Shown here piece after piece: positions 2,985 through 32,246 of a DNA stretch of 64,000 nt. Within the stretch, counting starts at the first letter, position 1. Every line of letters begins with the position of its first letter. The DNA comes from a candidate division KSB1 bacterium (GTDB lineage: Bacteria > Zhuqueibacterota > Zhuqueibacteria > Residuimicrobiales > Krinioviventaceae). The notes under the pieces were generated by a model. The model worked only from the letters and a program-made list of their open reading frames with translations, did not search any database and was not told the origin of the DNA. The position numbers were made by a program, and so were the translations under genes. Where the stretch lies: contig JAXHMJ010000005.1 of assembly GCA_034521575.1 (NCBI GenBank), forward strand, positions 868,001 to 932,000, read 5' to 3'.

Positions 2985-4246
2985 CTATTCGTTTTTTGAG
3001 CCTGGAAATTTATGATTAATATTCATCAAATTGGAATCAATTTCATGAAAATGCAGTATTTCCGTATTCAGACCGCTTCGTTCAACACCGGAGACTCTTA
3101 ACGACGTCTTGGAAGAAGGAGGCAGTTTGTCCTTTATTTGGTTTTTTTTCAATATCTTCAAGTACTCGGAATCGGACAATTTCTTTAACGCTTCCACCTT
3201 GCCAAACGATGAAAAAGAGATGATCAACATGGTCACATTATTTTCAGTCGGAAATTTCGCAACGACGGTATAATCGTCATGAAATCCGTAACGGTAATAG
3301 GATTCCAGTGAATAAGTTTCAGTTGTATCCGTATAAAAAGGGGTATAATACACCTGATGCGGAAAAAGATTCACCTCTGAACCGTAACTGATTAAAAAAT
3401 ATTTTCATTTGCCGCAATGTTTTGACACTGCCAACAAAAATAATATTGTTCTGCAGCATATCCTGCCAGGCCAAATCTGACGCTAATTTTATATTCAGCT
3501 TGTTCTTATGTCCATTATAGATATTATCCAGGATCGAAACCACATAAGGAACTTCCATCCCCAAATACGTCAAAGGGGTTTCGGTAATTTCCATTTTCCT
3601 GAGGATGATCTCCCCAGAGAAAACTTTCAGAATCCTCTTTTGAATTGATTTCCACATCCCGGATAAACCGTTCACGCTCATTGGTTTCAAGCGGCTGTTG
3701 AAGGACATAGTAATCACCTATCACCAGGAGTGTCGGCAGAGAAGATTCTATAAAGTCAGACCAAATTGGATTCTCATGATGATTGTACTGATTTCCATGA
3801 ACTTGTTTTTCCAGAGAATAACTTTTTTGAAAATAATAGATGGACAACGCAATAAATAGTAAAAGGACTGCAGCAAATACAGCATATGCATTCTTTTTAA
3901 TCTTTTTTGAGGGGACTTGATTTTGAGTGGCAACACATTCCACCTTGTACTGACCTTTGGGCAAAACCAATTTTTTCTTATCTTCTTTCCCCTCTGTCAA
4001 ATAGTACGTTTGCAGTTTTTTCCGCAGAGAATACATATGAGACCGAACGATCGAGTCCAAAGAGGAGAATGGGGATACGTCAGTTCTCCCGAAAAATTCC
4101 ATGGCAATATCTATTTCTTTAAGTGTTCTGTGATTAACAGAGGCGTCAATAAGATATTTCAGGAACTTGCGATCAATTTCGGAATTAAAGTATGAACTCT
4201 CAATGAGAGTTGTATATATTGTATATGCGGTTTCTTTGTCAATCAT
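2985..4246 (-). pseudogene. Membrane-anchored winged-helix (CadC/ToxR-like) regulator, frameshifted
   Basis: Residues 20-105 form a winged-helix DNA-binding domain of the type seen in CadC/ToxR-like one-component regulators: AMEFFGR, then SIVRSHMYSLRKKLQTYY and LPKGQYKVE. A single transmembrane helix follows at about 119-137 (VFAAVLLLFIALSIYYF), then an extracytoplasmic domain ending at 2985. That domain is spread over three reading frames, with shifts near 3600-3650 and 3375. The gene stands head to head with the TBDT at 4637, so the likely job is to sense an envelope signal and control that locus. The output domain is well supported. The sensor domain matches no family I recognise. Confidence 0.6.
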
Positions 4247-4636
4247 AGGATATTACCTGACAATCTATTGGTTAAATTAAAATTTGACAATGTTACACTC
4301 CAGCTAATATTATCACACGTTAACTGTCAAATTATTCAGACCTTATTCACAAATCTAATATATGAATTATCCGTGCATTTGCAAATACTTTGTTTTTGAC
4401 ATGTTTATAACAAGTTTTTCACTGGCAATGTATTGCAATTATTAGTATATACCAAAGCAGATTGTTCATTTGTTTCCATAAAAATACAATGAGCATTGGT
4501 TATGAACAAAATATAGAGAATTATACAGAATTGGAATGCATTCTTTTTATAAAGGCATCAAGAACTCAATACCAAATGTGTTTACAATTGATTCCGGGAT
4601 TGTAAAGCTGTAACTATTATTGATTTGGAGGTTAAC
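4247..4636. other. AT-rich divergent intergenic region
   Basis: About 390 bases separate the regulator from the TBDT and must hold the promoters for both. A TTGACA is present near 4396 and GGAGGT lies just before the TBDT start. I found no convincing -10 at a proper spacing and no operator palindrome. Confidence 0.4.
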
Positions 4637-7563
4637 ATGCAAAAAAAATTATACAGCTTGTTGCTTTTGCTTTTATTTGCTGTTAGTGTGTTTTCTGCAA
4701 CAACAGGCAAAATCACAGGTAAAGTTATGGATGCGGAAACCGGCGAGCCCCTGCCGGGTACTAACGTCACCATTGCAGGCACAAAGATGGGGGCTCCGAC
4801 GGATTGGAGGATCTTGTTTTTATCATTAATGTCTCTCCGGGCATCTATACCGTTTCAGCAAAAATGATGGGCTATAAAACATTGAAAAACATCAGGTAAA
4901 CATTGACCGCACCACGACCGTCAATTTTTCATTAACGATGACTACCATAGAAGGCGAAGAAGTTGCCATTGTCGCTGAACGGGAGAAAATCCAAAAGGAT
5001 GTTTCATTTTCACAGATGGCATTGACGGCCCGGGAAATCAACTCGATGCCGACAGGTGTGGATTTACGCGAGTCCATTGCCATGGGCGTCGGAATCGAAC
5101 GGAACTTGTACGGGCACCTCAGTATCCGCGGCGGAGAAATTGATGAAATCGGCTACTTTGTAGATGATTTATCGCGCAACGACAGACGTGTCGGTATGCC
5201 GGTGATTAAAGTCCCGCAGTCCGCTGTAAAGGAAATCCAGGTATTAACCGGCGGCTTTAGCGCGGAATATGGGCAAGCCAGATCAGGTATGATCAATGTG
5301 GTGACAAAGGACGGCGGTCCCAATTATACCTTTAGTCTGGATTACAGAACAAGTCCGGCTGCCAGAAAGCATTTCGAACCCAATATTATTCTCTCCGGAA
5401 AACTGGTGGGACGTCGGCCGCTATTTATATCTGGAGCCCTCTCCGGACCGGGATGGTGACGGCACACCGGATTTCGAAGGATGGAACTCGTATATGGAAC
5501 GAAACGGCGGTGAAAAAACAGTACCCGGTCCTTATGGGAATGCCGGTGTAGCCAAAAGTCCGGAAGAAATGCTGGAAATCTGGAAATATCAGCACAGACC
5601 GCAGGATTATGCCAATGAACCGGACCACTATATTGAATCCACGTTCGGCGGACCTGTTCCCTTTACCAATGATAAACTGCATTTTTTCTACAGCGGATAT
5701 TTTGACAGAACACTGTTTGCATTCCGGTTTTCAAGACCCGCTTTCGTGGACCAGACGCATTCATTAAAATTGAATTAAACTGAATAACAATTTAAAGCTT
5801 CGGTACACGGGTAATTATGGTGAGACCAGATCGGTAACCTATGACGCAGAGCCGGGCAGGTATGTGGATGCCCATTACTGGGGAAACGTTAAAGATGCCA
5901 TGGATGGAACCGCTGCGGGGCATCTCTTTAATTCTGACACCCGAATGGTGCATGCCAACGTATGGCGGACACTTCACGGCCTGGAGTTGGAACATGTGAT
6001 CAATCCTCGGTCCTTTTATAAAGTCAGATTTCAATATGACAGAACAAAATACCGGGCCCATCCCGGCGAGATGCGGGATACCACAACCGTCAAAATGGTC
6101 GGAGATGTAAGGCTCGATGAAACCCCGCTAAACTTTGCTCCGAATCAATGCCGAAGATGTACTGAACATTCACCGTATGGGCGAGGATAAAGGCTGGCGG
6201 GATTATACCTGGTATGATGCCTTCCAGCTGCGCGGTGATTATACCAATCAGATAACCAACCGGCATCAGCTCAAATCCGGATTCAAAGCTACATTAAATA
6301 AGATGCATCTCGATTACGGCCGCCACCGCTGGAGCGACCACCGTATAGATCAGCCGCCGGAATATTGGACTGAACGCAATGTCTCTTACCTGGAAGTGGG
6401 CGCCTATATCCAAGACAAGATAGAATTTGAAGGCATGGTCATGAACATTGGTGTACGCATGGATGGCTTTAAATCATTCGAAGGTGCGTTCACCGATCCC
6501 TGGTCCTATTATTATACAAAAGGCGTCAATTATGACAGTCTGTATTATGCGCCCAGTAAAGTTCCGCCCATGAAAGTGGTTGTGAGTCCGCGGCTGGGCG
6601 TATCACATCCCATCACAGACAATGCCAAACTGTTTTTTAATTACGGATATTTCTTTCAGCGTGCTACCGTGGAAGATCTTTATACTGATATTCGCGAACA
6701 AACAAGCAGTCTGGAAATGATGGGAAATGCAAGATATGAATTTCCGCAAAACCATTTCTTACGAACTGGGTGTTGAACATAATGTTGCCGACATCTTTAC
6801 CTACAAATTAACCGGCTATTACAAGGATGCATCCAATGAAATAGGAACCATTGCATTTCTGGGTGATACGTATCCGGGTTCCTATTATAGAAGAATGAAC
6901 AACCGGTATCGGGATATTCGCGGATTTGAATTTGAGTTGTTTCTGCCTTATAACAAATATCTGGCGGAAGAGCTAACAAGTTATGATTACAGGTTGTCAA
7001 ACAGAGGATGGTATGGATACCAGGCTTATTTTGAAGATCTATTCCGAAATATATGCAATCGCCCAAATCGAAGCAAACCGCGTCCACGCCCCAGGTTCAG
7101 GGCAAACCTGACCTTTCGAACCCCGGAATCCTTAAAACAGCCGGTTATGAACACGCTCTTTTCCGATGTTCAAATCACCACCTATTTACGCTGGGAAGCA
7201 GGCAATTGGCTGACCTATCATTCCGAAACGTATCCGGGTGAAGAAGAAAATAATATCCAGTGGACGTCCTGGCATAACATCGATCTGCATCTATCAAAAG
7301 GATTCAGGCTGTTTGGGATTTACACGGAATTGTATACAGAAATCCAAAACCTGTTAAATTCCAAATTTCTGGACGGCGACGGTAGTTTCTGGAACCAGTC
7401 ACTCATCAGTCAGCAGCAGTATTTGGAACTTGTGGCTGAAAAGGGTATGAAACCGGGTGAATATGACGATCCCGATGTTCAAAAACTTTTGGATAAAGGA
7501 ATGTATTATCTGCTGTATGGTCCGACACGCGATATCTGGCTCGGCATCAGGATGAGTTTCTAA
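4637..7563 (+). pseudogene. TonB-dependent receptor with CarboxypepD_reg domain, multiple frameshifts
   Basis: The ATG at 4637 follows GGAGGTTAAC. A signal peptide (MQKKLYSLLLLLLFAVSVFS) leads into a carboxypeptidase-regulatory-like domain (GKITGKVMDAETGEPLPGTN). The plug follows (SIRGGEIDE, VKEIQVLTGGFSAEYGQ, MINVVTK), then a long beta-barrel ending RDIWLGIRMSF. This is a SusC-like outer-membrane transporter without a SusD partner. The protein runs through all three frames, with shifts near 4802, 4898, 5405, 5775, 6145 and 6745. At least two can be repaired by restoring one base of a homopolymer (4898 needs G, 5405 has an extra A). No in-frame nonsense is needed to explain the breaks. It is either a pseudogene or an indel-rich consensus. 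Confidence 0.75.
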
Positions 7564-7602
7564 TTTTCCAATTCGACATGTACTATAAATGGAGATTTCA
7601 AA

Positions 7603-9448
7603 ATGACGGTAGATAGATTTTTTAACTATTTTCCAATTTTGATATTAATATTTCGCATTTTCCAGGGTTCAGCGAAATTACTGGATTCTGATTGGGAAGA
7701 TTTCAAATGGATGTTAATGATGACGGCTCGTATGAATTTTGTATCCGGCTGATTTGATGAAGAAGATGGTTGGGAATGCAGAAGAGTACAATCTCTTTTA
7801 TGGCAAAAAACTGGACAGATCCCAACGGAACACTGTATGAATATCAGGTGGGAGGCATTTATCCTCACTCTTCCATAAATATATTCGATACGCTCCTACG
7901 AACATTATTGTGGACGGCGGAGATGTTCTGAAAATTTGAGCAGTATTGAAAGTATTTAGACGAAAATCTGACAGCCAATCGCAGAATGATCAAACACGTG
8001 TATATTTCAAGTATGGGATTACGTATCGTAGCAAGAACCTACGGGTTCAGTCATGAAGATTATCAGGATTTCGCTCTCACCCATTATATGTTTATCAATA
8101 CGGGTGAAGCCAATGAAGTTGAAGATGGATTTACCGGATCAGGATTTAACAGACCTTTACTTGATACTGGACCGTTGGAAATCATGGCCTGACCAGCATT
8201 TGTCAGACCGTCACCATCCCGGCGTGAGTTCTCATTTTATGGATTATTACGGAGATGATCCGGAAGACTCGCTGCGGGAGTGTGCTTTACCGCTTGGGAC
8301 GACAATGATCCGAGCAATGGCGAGTATGAAGATGAGGGCAATCCAGCCTATGCTACGGACTGGGAATTTCTGACATCTTATCGCGGAGATACAGCTTGTA
8401 CATGCCGACCAAAGCAACAGGAATGCCACTAATGATCAAACAAAAGTTGTGTCGGTTTTGCGCGGCGCCAATTATGATCTAAGCAATTGGACCGAAGACG
8501 AGTTTTATTCATATTTAACAACACCCGGAAATTATCCTCCTCCCATAGATCCGGATACTCCCGGTATCGATCCTAAAAATGAACAGCAGCCCAGAGTATA
8601 CATGTCAGTCGGTCCGTATGACCTGGCGTTTGCGAGATACCGTGAATATCGTTTTGTTTATGGGGGTTGGCGCCCGCAGTACCGAAGAATGCCGGGAATG
8701 GGGAACAAAGTATAAAAATGGTGAAATTACCGATACCCAGAAAAATGAGTTTCTGCGCTGGGGTAAAACGGATTTGCTGAACAAATTGAGCAGATCAAAA
8801 AAACTGTGGCGGGATGATTTACAGCTACCCGCCGGTATGAATCCTGAACCGCCTGCTGCCATAACCATTGAAAGCGGCCCGGGATATATAGATTTAAACT
8901 GGGAAGCGGTTCCGGATGCTGAATACTATAATATTTACAGAGCGCTCGGTGTGCAGGATTCAGTTATTTATCCTCTGGTCATGGAGGGTATAACAGAAAC
9001 ATCTATAAGAGATGACAGTGTTAAAAGAGGATTTGATTATTATTGCGTATTAACGGCCATGAACAGCAAAGATGCGGAAAGCAGCAAATACTGGGCTCGG
9101 ACTTCGAGAAAATCTGCAGTTCCCAGAACAGCCCTGGGAGCGGAAGATTTAAAAGATGTCAGAGTGGTTCCGAATCCGTTTGTTTATGACAGATCCGGTC
9201 AGGGAAATTATACCGGTCAAAAAGACAAAATAATCTTTGCGGGCTTGCCGGGACCCTGTACAATCACCATCTTCACACAATCCGGCGACATTGTGGATGA
9301 AATCAATCATGATTCCGATGAGGGGACACACGATTGGTTCCAGGTTACCCAATATAACCAGTTTATATCGAGCGGTATCTATGTTTATCACGTCAAAAGT
9401 ACAGAAGGTAAGGGCAGCATGATGGGCAAATTTATTATTATTCGATAG
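7603..9448 (+). pseudogene. Secreted FN3-containing protein with C-terminal secretion-type domain, multiple frameshifts
   Basis: Pieces in all three frames can be read as one protein of about 600 residues. The N-terminal half has segments such as WTDPNGTLYEYQVGG and DFALTHYMFINTGEA. The intact 3' part (about 8705-9448) has a fibronectin type III domain (PPAAITIESGPGYIDLNWEA, YYNIYRA). It ends in an Ig-like sorting-type domain with VRVVPNPFVYDRSG and a final MGKFIIIR. Such proteins commonly sit beside TBDT and PorV-like genes in KSB1/Calditrichota-type genomes, probably as surface or secreted accessory proteins. The N-terminal half is too broken to trust residue by residue. Confidence 0.55.
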
Positions 9449-9487
9449 CGCTCTCTGTCCAATTTTTTTCAATAAAAGGAGTTGACA

Positions 9488-10469
9488 ATGGAAAAATACT
9501 CTTTCAAAATATTAATAACAATGATCATTGTTTTGTCTGTTCCCAATATCATTTTTTCACAAATTCGTGAAGACTTTCCGGAATTTGAAAATGTTAAAAA
9601 AGTCGCTCAAACCGGATACCAATTTTTAAAAATCGGATCCAGTGCACGCAGCGCTGCCATGGGCGGAGCGGTGGTCACCCTGGAGGGAGATGCATCAACG
9701 GTATTTTCCAATACCTGCTGGTCTTGCTTCGATCAAAAGGAATTGGCTTTTGCCCAGTATTCCGATCCGGTTCGCAGAGATGAAACGTCAGGCCGTGTCT
9801 GCCGCATTCAATTTGGGCAGCTATGGATTCCTGGGTATCAATGCGGTGAACCTTGATAATGGTGACATTAAAGGTACCCGAATCAGCAATTCTAATCTGG
9901 GATATGAAGATACCGGTAATTTGAACGTCACAGAAATGGCCATCGGTCTCACTTATGCGCAGCGGTTCACAAACAGTTTCGGCGCCGGTATTACGGTCAA
10001 ATATTGTGAACAGGATCTGATCGCCGAGAAATCTTCTGTATTGGCCTTTGATATCGGAACCCTGTACAATACCGGATGGAATGCCGTGAAAGTGGCGGTT
10101 TCTGTCCAGCATTTCTCAAAAGAGATAAAATATATCGATGAAAACTTTGTACTGCCTTTGACATTCCGAGTGGGTTTTTCGGGTGATGTTTTGCAAATGG
10201 TCAATGTGGATTCAGAACAGCATAAACTCATGCTTGCCCTGGAAGGTGTAAATCCCCGGGATTATTCAGAAAGGGTTCATATCGGCAGCGAATACGTGTA
10301 CAATGATTTTTTGGCCATACGCGGCGGATATAAATTCAATTATGATGTGGAAAGTTTTTCCCTGGGTGTCGGATTCAGACACAAAGGCTTTCAATTCGAT
10401 TATTCCTATTCCGAGTTCGGCTCCATACTCGGTATGGTAGACAGATTTTCTCTTGTTGTGGATTTTTAA
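9488..10469 (+). CDS. PorV/PorQ-like outer-membrane barrel protein, frameshifted
   Basis: The start at 9488 follows AAAGGAG at 7 bases. After a signal peptide ending in IIFSQ comes FLKIGSSARSAAMGGAV with EGDASTVFSN, the N-terminal signature of the PorV/PorQ (UPF0164-like) family. The rest is an alternating beta-barrel ending DRFSLVVDF. In T9SS bacteria PorV takes part in cargo release, and paralogues accompany individual cargo or transport loci. Extra bases near 9713 (family sequence would read SNPAGLA) and shifts near 9740-9770 break the frame. It lies between the FN3 protein and a T9SS cargo protein, so it probably serves this locus. Confidence 0.7.
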
Positions 10470-10575
10470 CCAGAAAATGCATGGTATTGGAAATACATTC
10501 ATGTGGAGGAGGTGATTATCAGATAAATTGTTTCATTAATTCATAATAATTACACTCAAATAATTGGAGGAAGTC

Positions 10576-11623
10576 ATGAAAAGGCAAATGATACAATTCA
10601 TTTTAGTTGCAGTACTGGTCCTGGGATTCGGCACTGCTTTCGGTCAATGGGTTGTCTATGATTGCTCGGATCTGCCGGAAAACACATTTATGGGAGATTC
10701 GGCTTGGGTCGAACAGGACAATACGGATTTTATTACGGATAATGGTGTATCCGATTTGTTTTTCCGTGATTGAAGACCCGGATATCGAGGGCAATCATTT
10801 AATTCAGGTTGAAGAGTTAATCGGCGACCGCAAGGAATCGTTTATCAACAACTGGAATATTGAGGATCCATCTGTAGGCGTAACCTGTGTGTTCCGGACC
10901 AAACCCTCCCAGGGCATTCTGGATGCACAGGCTGATGATGACAATGATTACCGGTATTGCTATGTATCGCTACGCAATGGCCAATGGCGGGAAGAATTCC
11001 GTCTTGATTACCCGGGCGTAATCGACATTAATTATATTGATCAGGTTGTCGAGTTTCCAGAGGTAGTCGATTGGCATATATATCGATTTACCTTAAAAGG
11101 GAATGAAGTCAATATCTATGTGGATGAAAATCCGGAACCGCTTATTACCGGCATTACAGACAAATCCGTGGATCAAAATTACATCAAAATCGGCGATTCC
11201 AGTACCGGCGGCATGCATGGCTGTTTGTTCGACTGGGTTATCTGGGACAAAAGCGGCGCTTATGCACCGGGAGAAGGTATGGCTCTGCCCAGTGAACTGA
11301 CAGGTCTGGAAACAGGCGTTGCCGCAAAAGGCACAAGCGCTCCTTCCAGTCTACAGCTGTTGCAGAATTATCCGAATCCATTCAATCCCGTAACCATGAT
11401 CGATTATAAGCTTTCAACCGCATCCAATGTCACACTTGAAGTCTACAACACAATAGGACATAAAGTGCGGTCACTGGTGAATGCAGCACAAACAGCCGGT
11501 GATTACCGGGTGAACTGGAACGGTCAGGACGATGCCGGCAATCAATTGCCCAGCGGTATCTATTTTTACCGTCTGCAGGCAGGTCAGCAGGTTGAGATGA
11601 AAAAAATGACCATGATGAAATAG
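10576..11623 (+). CDS. Secreted LamG-like protein with T9SS type A sorting domain, one frameshift
   Basis: ATG 10576 follows GGAGGAAGTC. A signal peptide (LVAVLVLGFGTAFGQ) precedes a mainly beta domain, including YVSLRNGQWREEFRLDYPG and WHIYRFTLKGNEVNIYVDE, that looks like a concanavalin/LamG-type fold. The last 80 residues are a T9SS type A sorting domain (LLQNYPNPFNPVT, SGIYFYRLQAGQ, MKKMTMMK). The frame breaks near 10760 in GTTTTTCC, a T homopolymer. A strong hairpin terminator follows at 11642. The probable role is a surface or secreted polysaccharide-binding protein. Substrate is unknown. Confidence 0.7.
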
Positions 11624-11641
11624 ATTCATTGACAAAATCAC

Positions 11642-11680
11642 AAAAGTGCCATGTATGTATTCTCACTGCATGGCACTTTT
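11642..11680 (+). terminator. Rho-independent-type terminator
   Basis: AAAAGTGCCATG (11642-11653) pairs perfectly with CATGGCACTTTT (11669-11680), and the downstream arm ends in TTTT. It lies 18 bases after the T9SS-cargo stop codon. Confidence 0.75.
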
Positions 11681-11693
11681 AGTAAAGGTGCAT

Positions 11694-11815
11694 GACTACG
11701 GCTAAAGAAACAGATCTGGTGTATCCGGAGGGATATACGGTTAAAAAGTTAATTTCGATGCTGGTATTTTCGACGCAGACCGGGATTTGGGTAAAACTCG
11801 TCAGGAAAAAAGATG
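11694..11815 (+). pseudogene. C-terminal stub of an unidentified protein ending on the GH67 start codon
   Basis: Allowing one indel near 11749, the sequence codes for a peptide containing LVYPEGYTVKK then VNFDAGIFDADRDLG and ending RQEKR. Its TGA overlaps the GH67 ATG as ATGA, the classic layout of a translationally coupled upstream gene. The stub begins right after the terminator, so most of that gene has been deleted. I cannot name the family. Confidence 0.35.
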
Positions 11816-13957
11816 AAAAAAGCATTTAATCGTTATGTATTTTTATTGGCAGGTATTCTTTGTATTGTTTTGAACAGTTATGCCAAAGATGGATACAATC
11901 TTTGGCTGCAATATGAGCGTGTGAAAAATCCTCAATTGCTTCAACAATATAAACAGAATGTTACCGAGATTGTTGTTCCAGGCAATGGCAAAACATTTCA
12001 AATCATAAAAAATGAACTTTCCAGGGGATTGGCAAATCTTTTACAAAAAGATATGCAACAGTCCTCTCATATCACCCGCGATGGCGCTGTTGCGGTCGGA
12101 TCGGTAAAAAGTTCTGCATGGATTGCATCATTAGGATGGGAAAAAGAACTCGGGAAATTAGGCGATGAGGGATATATCATCCGGTCTGCCGTTGTACAGG
12201 GAAAAAAAATCACCGTAATCGCTTCAGACGATAAAATCGGGGCTTTATACGGTTCCTTTCATTTTTTGAGATTGCTGCAAACCCGTAAACCCATCAACGC
12301 ATTAAATATCATTCAGTCTCCAAAAATTCAGCGACGGTTTTTAAATCACTGGGATAATATTTATTCTACCCGCTTTGGCACGATAGAACGCGGTTATGCC
12401 GGAAAAACCCTGTGGAAGTGGGAGGACTTGCCGGATGAGATTGATCATCGATACCGGGATTACGCCCGAGCCAACGCATCAATCGGCATAAACAGTGTTG
12501 TCCTGAACAATGTGAATGCTGAGCCGCATATTTTAAAAAACGAATATCTAAAAAAAGCAGCAGCTTTGTCCGATATTTTCAGGCCGTACGGAATTACCGT
12601 ATATTTAACCGCCAATTATAATGCCCCGATGAAGCCTTCAGAGACGCCGTTTGCATTTAAAAAATGGGGAGGAATCGGAAATTTGCATACAGCCGATCCT
12701 CTGGATCCCGATGTGATTCAATGGTGGACAAATAAAGTCGATACAATTTATAAATATATACCGGATTTCGGCGGATTTCTTGTAAAGGCCAATTCAGAAG
12801 GCATGCCGGGGCCTCAGGATTACGGACGCACTCATGCCGAGGGCGCCAATATGCTGGCCAAGGCTCTAAAACCGCATAACGGCATTGTCATGTGGCGAGC
12901 TTTTGTCTATAATTCCGATATTGATTCAGACCGTGCAAAACGCGCGTATAAAGAATTTGTTCCTCTGGATGGACAATTTGAATCGAATGTTTTTATTCAG
13001 CCGAAAAACGGACCGCTGGATTTTCAACCGCGCGAACCGGTTCATCCGTTATTCGGGGCCATGCCTCAAACTCCCCTGTTAATGGAATTCCAGATCACCC
13101 AGGAATATCTTGGTGAATCTACATATCTTGTCTATCTGGACTCCGATGTGGAAAGAAATTCTGAATTTTGACACCTATGCCAAAGGTAAAACTCATTTGT
13201 CGCAACCGTTATCGACGGATCTCTGGATAATCATTCTATGACCGGTATTGCAGGCGTTGCCAATACGGGTTCGGACCGAAACTGGTGCGGGCATCACTTT
13301 GCCCAGGCAAACTGGTATGCTTTCGGACGTTTGGCCTGGGACTATTCACTGTCTTCAGATGAAATCTCTGAAGAATGGATCAGAATGACATGGGGAAACG
13401 ATGACAGAATTGTCAGTACAATAAAATCGATCATGTCGGGATCATGGGAAGCGGTTGTTAACTATATGACCCCCCTTGGACTGATTTTTACCATGGATGG
13501 ACAGCATTATGAGCCCGGTCATGAAAAGCGCAATAACAGGTACTGGTTTGCCGACAGTCAGGGATTGGGCTATGAGCGTACCCGCAGCGGCACAGGCGCT
13601 GTAGACCAGTATTTTAGCCCCATAAATGATCGATTTAATAATATTAAAACAGCGCCGGAAAAATACATAAGCTATTTTCACAAAGTTGATTGGGATCATC
13701 AAATGAAATCCGGCAATACATTTTGGCAGGAACTCTGTCTCAAATATGATAAAGGTCTGGACTATGTCAACACAATGATATCATTGTGGGAGTCGTTAAA
13801 ACCCCTGATTGATGATGAACGATATCAGCATGTTTTGAATAAGCTTGAAGAACAGCAACAGCACGCAGAAAAATGGCACAATAAAAGCACACAATTTTTT
13901 CGCAAATTCAGCGACTATCCGTGTGACATGAGATCTGCATCGTCTTCAGCCGAGTAA
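11813..13957 (+). CDS. GH67 alpha-glucuronidase, exported; two compensating frameshifts
   Basis: This enzyme cleaves (4-O-methyl-)glucuronic acid from the ends of xylan oligosaccharides. A signal peptide (LLAGILCIVLNSYA) is followed by the GH67N domain and the catalytic barrel. The family's three acids are visible: E329 in KANSEGMPGPQDYG, D386 in FVPLDG and E425 in LLMEFQITQEY. Length is about 715 residues, normal for GH67. The frame is lost near 13143 and regained near 13205, where the family sequence continues FDTYAKGK then ATVIDGSL, so two indels cancel. The 3' part is clean: VANTGSDRNWCGHHFAQANW and AVVNYMTPLGL. It is followed by GH28 and a GH67-like gene in the same direction. The ATG overlaps the stop of the preceding stub. 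Confidence 0.88.
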
Positions 13958-14018
13958 AGATTCAATTAATTTTAAAAACTGGAATGACACAAAAAATGAA
14001 TATATGGAAGGCATATCA

Positions 14019-15555
14019 ATGAAAATTATCAACAATCTATCGAGTTTCTTGATCCTCGCTTGCTCCTTATTTTTTCTAAATTGTACATTGATATCTCCTG
14101 ATAACAATAAAAACAAAACAGACACAGACAAATTATTTTATGTATCCGATTTTGGCACAAAAGCAGATGGACAAAGCAATGATGCAGCTGCAATCAATGC
14201 GGCAATCACGGCATGCTCTGATTCAGGCGGCGGCGTTGTTCGTTTTTCAAAAGGAATCTATGCCACAGGTTCGATTCATCTGAAAAGCAATGTCACAATC
14301 AAGCTGGATTCCGGAGCCATTGTCAAGGCACTGACCGGCGTCATGGATCACTGGGAACCCAATGAACACGATCAGGGTTTAATGGATGCTGCGTATTACC
14401 ACTGGGAAGCCTCTCTGATATGGGGCAAAAATCTCGAAAACATTAAAATATTAGGCCCCGGCACCCTGGATGGATCAGCATTAACCCGCAGCAGCGATGT
14501 TCCCAAAGGTACAGGAGACAAGGGCATCGCTCTTAAATTATGCAAAGACATTGAGATCAGGGATCTGAATATAGTACAAGGCGGACATTATGCCATACTG
14601 GCAACAGGCTGTTCGGATCTGACTGTTAACAATGTCAACATTAACACCAGCCGCGATGGAATTAATTTATCCCAATGCAGCAACGTCATAATAAGCGATT
14701 GTTATATTGATGCGGTTCGCTATGAGAACGGGGTTCCGGCCGGAGGTGATGATGCAATCAAACTCGGCAGCGATCTCTCATTAGGTGAAGCCCTGCCGAG
14801 CACAAATATCCGGGTAGTCAATTGTACGCTTGCAAGCGGCTGCAATCCCCTTCAATTCGGAACCGAAACAATCGGTACGTTTCAGAACATCCGTTTCGAG
14901 AACATTCGGATTAAAAATGCCGGCAAAGCCGGAATCAGCATTGACATCCAATGACGGCAGTGTGATCGACGGCGTAACGTATAAAAATATAAGCATGGAA
15001 AAAACATTTGTCCCCATTTTCCTCAAAATTTCGGATGTAGCGCGCGTACCCGCGGGTACATACAGCCGCGGTGTCATTCGTAATATTGATTTTGAAAATA
15101 TTACGGCAACAGATTGTTTCAGTTATATAAAAAACAGAGAAATGCCTTCGGTGATTTGGGGCAAACCCGGCACCCCCATTGAAAATGTTACATTCAAAGA
15201 TGTAAACATCCGGGCAAAAGGCGGACATCCGCTTTCTGAAGCGTCTATTCAACCATCAGAAAATGACGAAAGATTCCCGAGAAAAGTCGGCGCTATCCCT
15301 TCTTATGCCTGGTACCTCAGACATGTGAAAAATATCAGTTTCAGGGAATGTGAGTTCGGCTTTGAGCAAAATGACGACAGACCCGCATTTGTGATTGATG
15401 AGGGTTCCAGTGTGGAACTGTCCGACACTTTCCTGCAGAAAGGGTCCGGTATAGAATACCGCATCGAATTAAGAGAAAGGGTGCATGATTTCAAAATCCA
15501 TAATTGTGACGGACTTGACGACGTCAATGAAAGCGCAACGAATAAAAGGTACTAA
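14019..15555 (+). CDS. GH28-like (polygalacturonase-type) beta-helix lipoprotein, one frameshift
   Basis: ATG 14019 lies 7 bases after GGAAGG, and a hydrophobic leader ends FFLNC. The mature protein opens YVSDFGTKADGQSNDAAAINAAI, typical of pectate-lyase/GH28 beta-helices. It carries NTSRDGINL and GGDDAIKLGSD, matching the NTD and DD positions of GH28 (Asp 213, 244 and 245). The usual GHG motif is replaced by NPLQFGTET, as I recall from a GH28-like bacterial subgroup, so the exact substrate is open. A one-base shift near 14945 separates GISI from SNDGSVIDGVTYKNISM. It sits between two GH67-type genes, which suggests a galacturonate- or glucuronate-containing pectin or hemicellulose side chain. 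Confidence 0.75.
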
Positions 15556-15591
15556 AAGCCTGTCTTGGTTTAAAAGTGTGAAAGGTAAAAT

Positions 15592-18327
15592 ATGAAATTT
15601 TTCAGAATCATAACGGCAACACAGGTAATTGTCATGCTCTTGTCCGTATCATTCTGCATGGCAAAAGACAAAAATACCGCCGCTCCGGTCGGTAGATGGG
15701 ATTTCCCTGCAGGCACAGGGCAGGATGGTTCCGCTTATAACAATCCCGCTGATTTGGGGGATGCCATGGCTTATCCCCTTGGTAATGACCAGTTTTGCAT
15801 GAAAGTGATGCCTGACGGCAAACCGATTACCATAAAAACAAATGCTGATTCCAAACTCGCTATCAAAGCCGGTACCATCAGTTTATGGGTCAATTCAAGT
15901 TATGTGCATAATTATAATCTGGTCGACTATGACAATGGTGCATTTACTCTGCGAAGTTATAGGGGCTATCTGCAAGCAAGATTCAAAGGCGAGACCAGCT
16001 TTAAATTTTCCGGCACTGTCATGAATGATAAATGGCACAAGTATGTAATGCGAGAGGACGCATTTTATCCTCATGACAATGCCATGATCAGCAATAATGT
16101 CTGGCATCATTTTGCCGTCACATTTGACTATGTAAATAAAAGGTTTATTGGGTGGCGTGACGGAGAACTGATAGCAGTCATTGATCTGTCCGAATCTGAT
16201 GTGGAAGCGTTAAAAACACAAGATCTCGGCAAAATTGTAATCGCAGAAGAGTTTACAGGATTTATCGATGACATTCGAATCTATGATGAAATTTTTGAAA
16301 TAGCGGATGTGCAAAGAATATACAACGCGACCACATCTATTTACAAGTCAAGACAGGATATCATCAAACCACCAAAAGACCTCTATGTCTATTCCTTCAA
16401 TGAATCCGATAAAGAATTATATGATGCCTGGTTGAGAGAAAAGCCGGACAATACAGTAAATCCGTTCAAATTTAAACATATCGTGATCCAGGGACAGAAC
16501 TCAACCATTTATACAGCAGGCCAAGAATTGACCGCTGCTATTCATCAAAAGCCAGAACTTGAAGTTATTTCATCGCCGGCTAAAGAGGGGAACATTATCC
16601 TCGGAACACCTTCTGAATCGAAAATTATAAGTGAAATGGCTGCGGTTCTCGAATTGGATAAAATTGTTCATGATGGATATGTTATTAAAACTGTAGATTA
16701 TCATGGTAGTCTCTGCATCTTTGTTGCCGCTAATAAACCCGCCGGTGTTGTATTCGGCGCCTTTGATTTAATCAGAAAGATCAATTTTGAAAAAGACTTG
16801 GACAAACTGGATATCCTTTCAAATCCCAAAGTGGAAATACGCTTAATAGGGCATTGGGACTGGTTTCGCGGATTTGCAAGTGACGGTTGGCATGCAAAGG
16901 AAATCAATTCCTTTAAATGGGAGAGCAATCGCTATAATTCTATTTACAGCTGGGAGGATTTGCGCACAGGAAATACCAAATTAATAAAAGACTGGGCCCG
17001 GTTACTGGCATCTGCAGGCTGGAATGCCGTGTGTCCGACCGAAATCAACTGGCAATTTCAGAATAATTTTTTAGAACACCTGGATGAGGTGGAATTATTA
17101 GCTGAAATATTCCGCAATTACGGGATCACCCTGTATTGGACGCCCAATTATCTGTTGGCCCTGGAAAAAGCTACAGCTGATACGCTGTATGCCCATGTTC
17201 CGGACTTTGGCGGTTATCTGCTGAAACTGGGCTCCGAAGGTCAATTGGGCAATCCCTTCCCTCCCATGGTCAATCAAATTGCTGATAATTTACTGCCGTA
17301 CGGCGGCCAGGCTCTGGTGCGCGGTTTTGTTTATGGCAAACACCGATACAAACACCTGACCCCGGTGTATCGAAACACTATGCAGTACGATATCTATGTC
17401 CCCAATGACGGCACATACCGCGAAAACGTGACCATTGTCGGCAAGGCCAACCCCCTGGACTGGGACCTGTCTGCTCCGATCTCACCATTGGACGGCGCGC
17501 TGCGGGAAACTGCGTACGGTACAGAGATGGTCGTGGCAAAAAGTTGGCCGGCATCCTGGATTGAAAAATGGAAATGGTGGATGGATTACGATAATTATCG
17601 CAATGGTCCTGGCAGTTATAACAAAAATGAAATAAAATGTCTGCTGGGTGTGTCAATGATCAGCCCGTCCCCCGCCTGGACATCCAATCCATTGAATATG
17701 GCAAACTATTACGGATTGGGCCGACTCGGATGGAATCCCGACATTTCAGTGGATCAAATATACGACGAATGGATAAAATTAACGTTTAATAAAGACCCAA
17801 AGGTCGCTAAAACCGTCAAAGATATATTGTACCTCTCGGATAATGTATTAAAGAACCTTTATCTGTATCGCGGATACAGAGGCGTCTGGTTCGACACCTC
17901 TGAAGACAACCTGGTCGAGAGCAAGACTCCTCATATTCTCAACAAAAAGGGCTTTGGAATAGTGAATACCAAAGCCCAAAAGAAAGAACTTGAGCAATAT
18001 GCTCCGCAACTGCGCTCCGTATTTGCTGACCCCGTAAAAACTGAAGCGTTTCTGCCGTACTTTCATTTTGTCGAATATGATTACAAACTCACAAACGGCA
18101 GGACTCTGATCGAGGACATGTATGCCAATCTGGATGACGCCGTCGCGGGAACAAAGCAGATGCTGAAATTGTGGAATCAACTGGATGGTCATATCAATCA
18201 GAGACAGTTCGATTATACCCGAAATCATTTAAAAGATTATATTGACATTGCCGAGAGCAGGCGGCGGCAAATGAACGAAATATTTGAACACTTGACCGGA
18301 TACGAATATAGTGATGTAATCGACTGA
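15592..18327 (+). CDS. LamG domain fused to a divergent GH67-like glycosidase, 911 aa
   Basis: The gene is intact, with AAAGGT 7 bases before the ATG. Residues 1-24 are a signal peptide. Residues 30-245 look like a LamG/concanavalin-type domain (KAGTISLWVN, NNVWHHFAVTFDY, FTGFIDDIRIYDE). From about 290 the protein aligns with GH67: GAFDLIRKI, HVPDFGGYLLKLGSEG, YVPNDGTY, GTEMVVAKSW. Candidate catalytic acids E549, D606 and E645 have spacings of 57 and 39 residues, identical to E329, D386 and E425 of the neighbouring GH67. The GH67 substrate-site motifs PGPQDYG and NWCGH are absent, so the substrate is probably not ordinary aldouronic acid. It is likely exported and acts on the same polymer as its neighbours. 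Confidence 0.7.
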   Translation: MKFFRIITATQVIVMLLSVSFCMAKDKNTAAPVGRWDFPAGTGQDGSAYNNPADLGDAMAYPLGNDQFCMKVMPDGKPITIKTNADSKLAIKAGTISLWVNSSYVHNYNLVDYDNGAFTLRSYRGYLQARFKGETSFKFSGTVMNDKWHKYVMREDAFYPHDNAMISNNVWHHFAVTFDYVNKRFIGWRDGELIAVIDLSESDVEALKTQDLGKIVIAEEFTGFIDDIRIYDEIFEIADVQRIYNATTSIYKSRQDIIKPPKDLYVYSFNESDKELYDAWLREKPDNTVNPFKFKHIVIQGQNSTIYTAGQELTAAIHQKPELEVISSPAKEGNIILGTPSESKIISEMAAVLELDKIVHDGYVIKTVDYHGSLCIFVAANKPAGVVFGAFDLIRKINFEKDLDKLDILSNPKVEIRLIGHWDWFRGFASDGWHAKEINSFKWESNRYNSIYSWEDLRTGNTKLIKDWARLLASAGWNAVCPTEINWQFQNNFLEHLDEVELLAEIFRNYGITLYWTPNYLLALEKATADTLYAHVPDFGGYLLKLGSEGQLGNPFPPMVNQIADNLLPYGGQALVRGFVYGKHRYKHLTPVYRNTMQYDIYVPNDGTYRENVTIVGKANPLDWDLSAPISPLDGALRETAYGTEMVVAKSWPASWIEKWKWWMDYDNYRNGPGSYNKNEIKCLLGVSMISPSPAWTSNPLNMANYYGLGRLGWNPDISVDQIYDEWIKLTFNKDPKVAKTVKDILYLSDNVLKNLYLYRGYRGVWFDTSEDNLVESKTPHILNKKGFGIVNTKAQKKELEQYAPQLRSVFADPVKTEAFLPYFHFVEYDYKLTNGRTLIEDMYANLDDAVAGTKQMLKLWNQLDGHINQRQFDYTRNHLKDYIDIAESRRRQMNEIFEHLTGYEYSDVID

Positions 18328-18388
18328 TTTTGTAGTTGAAATTAGACACTTAAACCTGAACTCCGCACCTGAAAGTTTAGACCAGAAC

Positions 18389-18419
18389 GAGCTGTCCTGC
18401 TGCAAGTTCAGGACAGCTC
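18389..18419 (+). terminator. Hairpin after the LamG-GH67 gene, terminator-like
   Basis: GAGCTGTCCTG (18389-18399) and CAGGACAGCTC (18409-18419) pair perfectly around a 9-base loop, 62 bases past the stop codon. There is no T-run, so termination is probable rather than proven. Confidence 0.5.
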
Positions 18420-18461
18420 ACCCATAGTCCGAAAACCCGCAGAACCTGTTAAAGGCAGATT

Positions 18462-18604
18462 TTGTGTTAAAGAAAAAAACCGGAATTATCTGGATATTGC
18501 TTCTCATTACCCTCTCCTATGCCCCGGGTGTGATATATGGCCTGGATCAGGTGAGCGGACACCGCTACAATATTGATGACTTCTTAAAATGCAATGGCGC
18601 ATGA
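18462..18604 (+). other. Short signal-peptide-like reading frame in a 424-base gap
   Basis: A GTG-started frame of 47 residues begins with a plausible leader (KKKTGIIWILLLITLSYAPG) and ends CNGA. Beyond it another frame reads MNNKSRAKRKDEQILERTRR. This may be the 5' end of a decayed exported protein. I cannot identify a family, and the rest of the gap between 18328 and 18751 shows nothing else. Confidence 0.2.
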
Positions 18605-18751
18605 ACAATAAAAGCCGGGCCAAACGCAAAGACGAACAAATCCTTGAGCGTACCCGCCGGAAAATGCAGGTGAGAACAAATCAAATGGCACCAGGAATAT
18701 TTTTTCCTTTGCCTTTTTATCAAATCAAATATTTAGCTATAGGACACGGAG

Positions 18752-20230
18752 ATGATTGAAAGATCGGGATTTAAAGTTCCATTTACCCATAGAGTAATCC
18801 GCATTGTGATTGCCTTTCTTTTTAGCCTGGTATGTATTTCTGCTGCCGAGAATGGCCCCCCATACCAGGCCTCAGGAGTGAAAATCGGCGAAGTGGATCA
18901 GACGTCAGCGATTGTGTGGTGCCGACTGACTAAAAACGCCGATCGGCAAGATACAGGATTTGTAATACGTGAACAGGATATTTTCAATGATTCAACACCT
19001 GTGAAAAAATATTACCCGGATATAGATCTCGAATTGATGCATGGTGCAGTGCCCGGTATGCCGGGTGAGGTGAGGTTATGCTATTCCAAACAGGAAGATG
19101 CCGCTGATATGGTTTGTACGCCGTGGGCAGCAGTTGACGGAACACGGGATTATACGCATAAATTTAAAATAAATGGTTTGGAACCAAACACAAAATATTC
19201 ATTCAGCACAGAATGCCGGGCTTCAGAGGCTTCACCGCCGGGTCAGACTGTGCAGGGAAATTTCTGCACAGCCCCTCCCGTTCTGTACCCCGCTAAAGTG
19301 ATGTTTACGGTTGTGACCGGTCAGAAATATAGAAACCGCGACCGTGAAAACGGTCACCACATATTCACAGTGATGGATGAAATGAACCCGGATTTTTTTG
19401 TGCACACCGGTGACTTTGTTTATCTGGACCGTGAATGGGTCGCATCCGGAAAACAGGAAAATGCCGTTGACCGCGCCCGTCTGCAGTACCATCGCATCCA
19501 CGGCCTGGAACCGCAAAAAGAGTTCTATCGTTCCGTTCCATGCTTTATGATAAAAGATGATCATGACATCGGCAGAAATGACGCCTATCCCGGAAAGGAC
19601 ATTATCGGGTTTACTTTTGAACAGGGCATCAAGCTATTTAATGAGCAAATGCCGACCGGAGATATGCCGCACCGGACACGCCGTTGGGGAAAAGATCTAC
19701 AGATTTGGATGGTAGAGGGCAGAGATTTTCGCAGTCCGAATAACATACCCGATGGACCCGAAAAAACCATCTGGGGCCGGGAACAATTTGAATGGCTGAA
19801 ACAATCGGTCAAGCAATCTGACGCAACTTTTAAAATTCTGATCAGTCCGACACCGATAGTCGGTCCTGACCGGGCAACAAAAGGCGATAACCATTCAAAC
19901 CATAATTTCGCTTACGAAGGCAACCGGGTCAGACAGTGGATACATGATCAAGCGCCTGAATTGTACGTCATTTGCGGCGACCGGCACTGGCAGTATGTAT
20001 CCGTACATCCGACAACCGGAGTTCGCGAGTACAGCTGCGGCGCCACCACCGACAAACACGCAGGAGGATGGAAAGATGGTTTTATCGAAGAATATCACCG
20101 TTATTTCAATGTGATCGGCGGTTTCCTTTCCGTTACAGTCGAGCGGATCGATAATACACCCAACATCGTGTTCCGGCATTTTGATGTAAACGGACTGCTG
20201 CGCTATGCGGAACGTCATGTGAATGAGTAA
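18752..20230 (+). CDS. PhoD-like exported alkaline phosphatase/phosphodiesterase family protein
   Basis: Intact 492-residue protein with a signal peptide (IVIAFLFSLVCISAA). An N-terminal beta domain typical of PhoD (VKIGEVDQTSAIVWCR, FKINGLEPNTKYSF) leads into a metallophosphoesterase core. Metal-binding motifs are FFVHTGDFVYLDR, IKDDHDIGRND and YVICGDRHWQY. PhoD enzymes hydrolyse phosphate mono- and diesters outside the cytoplasm. Distant relatives occur in polysaccharide loci, where the true substrate is often unknown. It follows the glycosidases in the same direction after a 424-base gap, so co-regulation is possible but unproven. Confidence 0.8.
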   Translation: MIERSGFKVPFTHRVIRIVIAFLFSLVCISAAENGPPYQASGVKIGEVDQTSAIVWCRLTKNADRQDTGFVIREQDIFNDSTPVKKYYPDIDLELMHGAVPGMPGEVRLCYSKQEDAADMVCTPWAAVDGTRDYTHKFKINGLEPNTKYSFSTECRASEASPPGQTVQGNFCTAPPVLYPAKVMFTVVTGQKYRNRDRENGHHIFTVMDEMNPDFFVHTGDFVYLDREWVASGKQENAVDRARLQYHRIHGLEPQKEFYRSVPCFMIKDDHDIGRNDAYPGKDIIGFTFEQGIKLFNEQMPTGDMPHRTRRWGKDLQIWMVEGRDFRSPNNIPDGPEKTIWGREQFEWLKQSVKQSDATFKILISPTPIVGPDRATKGDNHSNHNFAYEGNRVRQWIHDQAPELYVICGDRHWQYVSVHPTTGVREYSCGATTDKHAGGWKDGFIEEYHRYFNVIGGFLSVTVERIDNTPNIVFRHFDVNGLLRYAERHVNE

Positions 20231-31247: not shown

Positions 31248-32246
31248 TCAGTCCACAGCTGAATTCTCCTTGACAAAATCGACCACCTCGTCCACGCTGC
31301 AGAACGCCAGTCCGGTCACCGTATCGGCGGCGCCGTAATAGATGGCAATGCGGCCGGTCTCTGCATCCGTCAGCGCTGCACAGGGAAACACCACGTTGGG
31401 CACATCGCCCACGCATTCATAAGTCTCTCTCGGATTCAGCAGATAGGGTTCGCCGCGGTACAATACCTTCCAGGGTTCATCCAGATCCAAAAGCGCGGCG
31501 CCAAAACTGTAGACAAACCCGTTGCAGCTGGTCATTACACCGTGATAGAACAGCAGCCAGCCTTCAGAGGTCTCGATGGGCACCGGTCCGGGACCGATTT
31601 TGGTGCATTCCCAGGTGAGTTTATCCTGTTTCGGCGACATGACATGCCGGTGACAGCCCCAGTGAACCATATCCGGACTCTGACTAACAAAAATATCCCC
31701 GAACGGCGTATGCCCGGTGTCACTGGGCCGACTGAGCATGTAATACTTGCCGTTGATTTTGCGCGGAAACAGCACGCCGTTGCGGTTAAAGGGCAGAAAT
31801 GCATTTTCCATTTGATAAAAGGTCTTGAAATCATCCGTATATCCCACCCCGATGGTATAGCCGTGGTAATTGTTGCACCAGTTGATATAGTAGCGGTCCT
31901 CGATCTTGATCACACGCGGATCATAGGCTTCGACAAACTGCCGGATCTCGTCATTCTCGCTGACCCATTGAATGGGACCGGGATCGATCTCGAACTGAAA
32001 TCCGTCCTTGCTGCGGCCGTTGTGAATGCGCATATGCCGGCAGGTCTGTCCGCCCGAAACACCCCGGCAAACTCACCGTTGAACGGCACCACCGCGCTGT
32101 TGAAAATGCTGTTCAGCGCCCGGAAACAGATCACGCGGGATCACCGGATTCTGGTCATAACGCCACACCACATCGCTGCTTCCCGCGGGTCGGTCCTGCC
32201 AGGGAATATTAGCCAGAGAATCACCGATTATGTTTACCTTGTTCAT
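31248..32246 (-). CDS. GH130 family beta-mannoside phosphorylase-like enzyme, two frameshifts
   Basis: The start at 32246 follows AGAAAGGAC. The N-terminus reads [20 protein letters not shown] and [10 protein letters not shown], diagnostic of GH130. Two shifts (near 32130 and 32040) then pass through [19 protein letters not shown] to [12 protein letters not shown]. The rest is intact: [19 protein letters not shown] (catalytic Asp in DPR), [32 protein letters not shown] and [22 protein letters not shown]130 enzymes phosphorolyse or hydrolyse beta-mannosides in the cytoplasm. No signal peptide is seen, so it would process imported oligosaccharides. Co-regulation with GH9 suggests glucomannan or a similar mixed glycan. 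Confidence 0.82.

Follow-up and report, generated by a model that had tools for sequence, protein, structure and literature searches.

The question raised by this locus is whether the second of its two GH67-type genes still encodes a working glycoside hydrolase, and if so, of what kind. We analysed a window of 64,000 nucleotides (the whole stretch of DNA, from contig JAXHMJ010000005.1 of a candidate division KSB1 bacterium) and compared the gene, designated here as LamG-GH67, with known GH67 enzymes and with homologous loci in other genomes. To our knowledge, all GH67 members have been assigned a single activity, and their base pair has been regarded as invariant. On comparison of the sequences, the LamG-GH67 protein is best read as belonging to a distinct GH67-related subfamily of three members, outside canonical GH67. 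Such a subfamily, which keeps the uronate pocket, lacks one base residue and occurs in two unrelated groups of bacteria, would offer a natural experiment on the need for that glutamate and on how GH67 could move to other acidic glycans.

Domain organization and predicted fold

The LamG-GH67 gene is an open reading frame of 911 codons without internal stops, and the N-terminus of its product is signal peptide-like; the protein looks secreted. In Pfam, the domains follow the order Laminin_G_3, GH67N, GH67M, and GH67C, all above the curated cut-offs (Table 1), which agrees with the preliminary description of this gene, where a LamG-like domain was said to have been added at the N-terminus. Laminin_G_3 scored 33 bits in this protein, and 47 and 44 bits in two orthologs (cut-off, 27.6). 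The LamG part is a poor region of the predicted model, and its matches in a search of PDB were all weak and repetitive. As a warning, the gene would be called an ordinary alpha-glucuronidase if judged by a domain search alone.

The best sequence matches in PDB were Geobacillus AguA and Cellvibrio GlcA67A (E 4e-69), which are GH67 xylan alpha-1,2-glucuronidases, enzymes that free GlcA or MeGlcA from xylo-oligosaccharides with inversion. The AlphaFold model matched AguA with a TM score of 0.82 by target length, and the top 11 PDB structural matches in Foldseek were all GH67 (11/11). According to the model, the protein is a complete GH67 fold behind a LamG domain. Like AguA and GlcA67A, it has the three-domain fold and the counterparts of E292, D365, W160, K288, R325, K360, and E387 (GlcA67A numbering). 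Unlike them, it shares only about 30% identity with either, has Ser in place of E393, has lost the PGPxxYG, DPLDP, NWxGH, and HHYGP loops, and has gained LamG.

Outside GH67, the best structural match was the GH138 pectin RG-II enzyme BP0997 (E 3e-14); however, with 13% identity, an rmsd of 12.7 Å, and a TM score of 0.45 by target length, the resemblance is at the level of the barrel only. The GH115 alpha-glucuronidase BoAgu115A has a distantly similar fold (Foldseek), but the identity is 11-12%, and the active-site residues of GH115 are not shared with GH67 (PMC3879575).

Table 1. Features of the locus. Positions refer to the window unless a locus is named; residues are those of the LamG-GH67 protein.
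Feature	Position	Strand	Basis
TonB-dependent receptor, several frames, at least 5 pieces	4691..7560	+	conserved locus
613-aa protein, PorV-like protein, T9SS-sorted protein	7615..11590	+	conserved locus
Canonical GH67 gene, frameshift-split (11813-13171 and 13238-13957)	11810..13957	+	ORFs, Pfam
GH28 gene, frameshifted	14004..15555	+	Pfam; best NCBIfam match rhamnogalacturonidase BT4146
LamG-GH67-like protein, 911 aa	15592..18327	+	ORF; orthologs L121 and L122
Laminin_G_3 match, residues 82-239	15835..16308	+	Pfam
GH67 N-terminal domain match, residues 293-393	16468..16770	+	Pfam
GH67 TIM-barrel (middle) domain, residues 398-678 (approximate)	16783..17625	+	Pfam; extent taken from ortholog L122
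E484, new acid in place of N209, the same in all three orthologs	17041..17043	+	alignment
E549 = catalytic acid E292 (GlcA67A) / E285 (AguA), kept	17236..17238	+	alignment; PDB titles
D606 = GlcA67A D348, not catalytic	17407..17409	+	alignment; predicted structure
D623 = base residue D365, kept	17458..17460	+	alignment
D625, new acid in place of Q367, the same in all three orthologs	17464..17466	+	alignment
E645 = GlcA67A E387 / AguA E386, conserved	17524..17526	+	alignment
S651 in place of base residue E393	17542..17544	+	alignment; both orthologs
GH67 C-terminal domain match, residues 697-905	17680..18306	+	Pfam
Remnant (C-terminal end) of 575-aa GH67-related gene	18524..18681	+	comparison with ortholog loci
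PhoD-like gene, open frame	18752..20230	+	conserved locus
575/577-aa and 586-aa proteins beside the orthologs	L124:6159-7892, L123:8677-10404, L124:2777-4537		distant GH67-barrel similarity

Orthologs and divergence

We found two full-length orthologs, LamG included, with 64% identity over residues 18-909 (L121, genome G1090) and 63% over residues 13-907 (L122, genome G1260). Both belong to one bacterial family, which also includes Ignavibacteriales bacterium DeMMO6_29 (G088). The search for orthologs covered 1,994 genome counts, in overlapping sets. No second copy was found among 82 genomes of the phylum of the source genome, which is separate from the family of the orthologs, and no relative above about 34% identity was found there or in 392, 388, and 128 genomes (the phyla of the Phycisphaerales, Verrucomicrobia, and Kryptoniota records, respectively), in plasmids, or in viral contigs. 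A pattern scan of genome contigs built from the LamG-GH67 protein alone detected no relatives; the same kind of scan from a mixed alignment detected at least 80 GH67s, nearly all with E393.

Compared with 98 other GH67-type proteins, the LamG-GH67 protein keeps 65 of 124 near-invariant positions and has changed the remaining 59. The next-lowest protein, which is truncated (412 residues), keeps 84 of the 124, and the one after that keeps 115. In the three orthologs, 49 of the near-invariant positions have switched to one common new state; the switched and fixed positions include those of E393, V210, N209, and Q367. E549, D623, S651, E645, K545, R577, K618, and W422 are identical in all three. 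The loops on the active-site face are 79% invariant among the three orthologs, versus 60% in the rest of the barrel and the C-terminal domain, although this contrast gives modest support because 19 of 507 rotations reach it as well. The preliminary description had suggested that a profile search might reveal a clade of its own, and the two full-length orthologs, which keep the changes, do form a lineage of its own with the protein.

The placement of the protein in a tree was set aside because of its saturated end branch (length 10), and an hhalign comparison of the ortholog alignment with alignment A2 was set aside because A2 includes the LamG-GH67 protein. The term 'GH67-like' was not found in the open-licence papers searched, which leave out most subscription journals; among these papers, GH67 and LamG occur together only in a Paenibacillus genome survey.

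Catalytic residues

The gene had been described as keeping a catalytic triad of E549, D606, and E645. These residues are present with spacings of 57 and 39, and they align with E329, D386, and E425 of the neighbouring GH67. Retention of the triad is nevertheless not supported, because E393 is Ser in the three orthologs and the barrel face that carries D606 is not the catalytic one. Strand 6 of the predicted barrel consists of residues 613-618; D606, seven residues ahead of it, would therefore lie at the N-terminal face, away from the active site. Judged by the outcomes that the preliminary description had named as refuting, the GH67 fold stands, but D606 fails, as the model puts it on the barrel face away from the active site. 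E645 is not the assigned base; its counterpart E386 in AguA is the residue mutated in 1MQR.

The assignment of E549 as the acid is backed by the titles of PDB entries for mutants, 1H41 (E292A) and 1K9E (E285N), and the position is Glu without exception in the 98 other GH67-type proteins and both orthologs. The base residues are, as we take it, D365 and E393 in GlcA67A and D364 and E392 in AguA, an assignment that reportedly goes back to Nurizzo 2002, Zaide 2001, and Golan 2004. When the 1GQI chain is numbered with an offset of 4, Glu, Asp, and Glu fall exactly at 292, 365, and 393. Of 97 other full-length GH67s, 96 have Glu at the E393 position, where the LamG-GH67 protein and both orthologs have Ser. 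In the predicted structure, E549, D623, S651, and E484 come after strands 4, 6, 7, and 2, respectively, and R577 ends strand 5. By sequence, predicted fold, the acid, and D365 the protein agrees with GH67, and at E393 it does not; we file it as GH67-related, in a distinct subfamily, and not as a canonical alpha-glucuronidase. A hidden frameshift near S651 that would restore QITQEYLG was ruled out, as the other reading frames do not contain the motif. The one exception among the 97, an otherwise canonical GH67 from Kryptoniota (L042:5812-7986, also L112), has QGALG instead of TQEYLG and is likewise without the E393 glutamate.

In canonical GH67, mutation of either base residue is reported to lower activity strongly, so the loss of E393 could mean lost function. 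The protein might then be a relative of GH67 enzymes with little or no catalytic activity, one that, together with LamG, binds acidic oligosaccharides for capture or sensing. We consider this unlikely: the lost base residue, the 59 changed positions, and the fused LamG would fit such a role, whereas the acid and D365 are kept in all three orthologs, the active-site-face loops are more conserved than the rest (with the modest support given above), and the gene has stayed open while many of its neighbours are frameshifted.

The reading that we prefer, at about an even chance, takes the protein to be secreted and to belong to a small subfamily related to GH67; it would probably act as an exo-alpha-uronidase in which the acceptor site is altered and the base modified. 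Its substrate would be an oligosaccharide with a terminal alpha-linked uronic acid (GlcA or 4-O-methyl-GlcA type), which the enzyme would release from an acceptor sugar other than the xylose found in classical GH67 substrates. In this scheme the leaving oxygen would receive its proton from E549, and water would be activated for an inverting attack by D623, possibly with help from D625 or E484, the new acids; LamG may help to bind the glycan. D634 is a further new acid that is fixed in the three orthologs. An inverting glycoside hydrolase without a carboxylate base has a precedent in GH95 (PMC4491172).

A less probable reading is a GH67-fold subfamily that works without the canonical Asp/Glu base pair, with either a base relocated to D625 or E484, or phosphate instead of water. 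The latter would make the protein a uronoside phosphorylase, in which phosphate in place of base-activated water would yield uronic acid 1-phosphate, and we regard this particular form as highly improbable. Inverting phosphorylases have no general base, and the change of Glu to Ser next to K650 and the PhoD-like gene in the locus would be in keeping with such an activity; however, the kept D365 would repel phosphate, the protein looks secreted, and Lys at the 650 position is not specific, since 19 of 97 ordinary GH67s have it too. In GH130, phosphorylase and hydrolase activities are told apart by whether the basic residues that bind phosphate have been exchanged for acids (PMC4599007).

Substrate pocket and the conserved locus

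W160, K288, R325, and K360, presumably the uronate-site residues of GH67, correspond to W422, K545, R577, and K618. In the alignment, K288, R325, and K360 are kept as a set, which suggests that the cleavage subsite would still take a uronic acid. What has been lost is at the base and in loops where the acceptor sugar should be held. The substrate motifs are gone, as had been noted, with PGPQDYG replaced by QLGNPFP and NWCGH by AWTSN. An acceptor other than xylose would follow from the changes in the PGPxxYG, DPLDP, and HHYGP loops and at the conserved C-terminal domain Trp (W543, chain numbering). That the substrate is a new uronic acid, as originally proposed, we only infer.

The changed loops and Trp position argue against an ordinary xylan-type alpha-glucuronidase with D623 alone as the base, for which the kept pocket residues, the canonical GH67 in the same locus, and the Kryptoniota GH67 without E393 would speak. 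Since a canonical GH67 is already encoded beside it, and since the stretches that were read showed no xylanase, we regard this as quite improbable. Activity on alpha-linked galacturonate, another suggestion of the preliminary description, is only slightly less doubtful. The adjoining GH28 resembles rhamnogalacturonidase BT4146 and is conserved in the orthologous loci; however, its NCBIfam score (214 bits) is below the cut-off of 500, and the position of V210, which we take to contact the 4-O-methyl group of 4-O-methyl-GlcA, is Ile and thus still hydrophobic.

The region 3024-20230 of the window is a locus of the utilisation type and is syntenic with both orthologous loci, although the order of the last genes differs. 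The shared set consists of a putative regulator (a weak Trans_reg_C match, below the cut-off), the TonB-dependent receptor, the 613-aa, PorV-like, and T9SS-sorted proteins, the canonical GH67, GH28, the PhoD-like protein, and LamG-GH67. The receptor, the 613-aa, PorV-like, and T9SS-sorted protein genes, GH67, and GH28 change frame at least once, and the LamG-GH67 and PhoD-like genes are open. These frame changes reflect either sequence error or decay. The neighbour that had been called a true GH67 is indeed canonical, but its gene is split by frameshifts. The receptor, GH67, and GH28 together suggest that a glycan containing uronic acid is imported and broken down. Beside the orthologs are also GH16, an MGH1-like GH, GH31, a 3-keto-disaccharide hydrolase, and a GFO/IDH oxidoreductase; the latter two (L123:3096-5841, beside the G1090 ortholog) suggest an oxidative route of glycoside cleavage nearby. 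As the neighbouring gene content points to several glycans, we claim no single substrate.

In the other two genomes, a 575/577-aa GH67-related protein is encoded between PhoD and the LamG-GH67 homolog. In the window, only the remnant is left, with about 520 codons missing compared with the intact gene beside both orthologs. The 575/577-aa and 586-aa proteins are distantly like the GH67 barrel and C-terminal domain (hhalign E 2.4e-7, with a profile that includes one LamG-GH67 copy), but are without the GH67 N-terminal domain and without LamG; in Pfam, no family scored above the cut-off. By eye, they have a Glu six residues past the strand-7 Glu. A 26% relative is encoded elsewhere in the source genome (G000:C5:1490904-1491755). 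A GH130 gene (mannooligosaccharide phosphorylase family) is located at 31248-32033 on the minus strand of the window, not near the locus.
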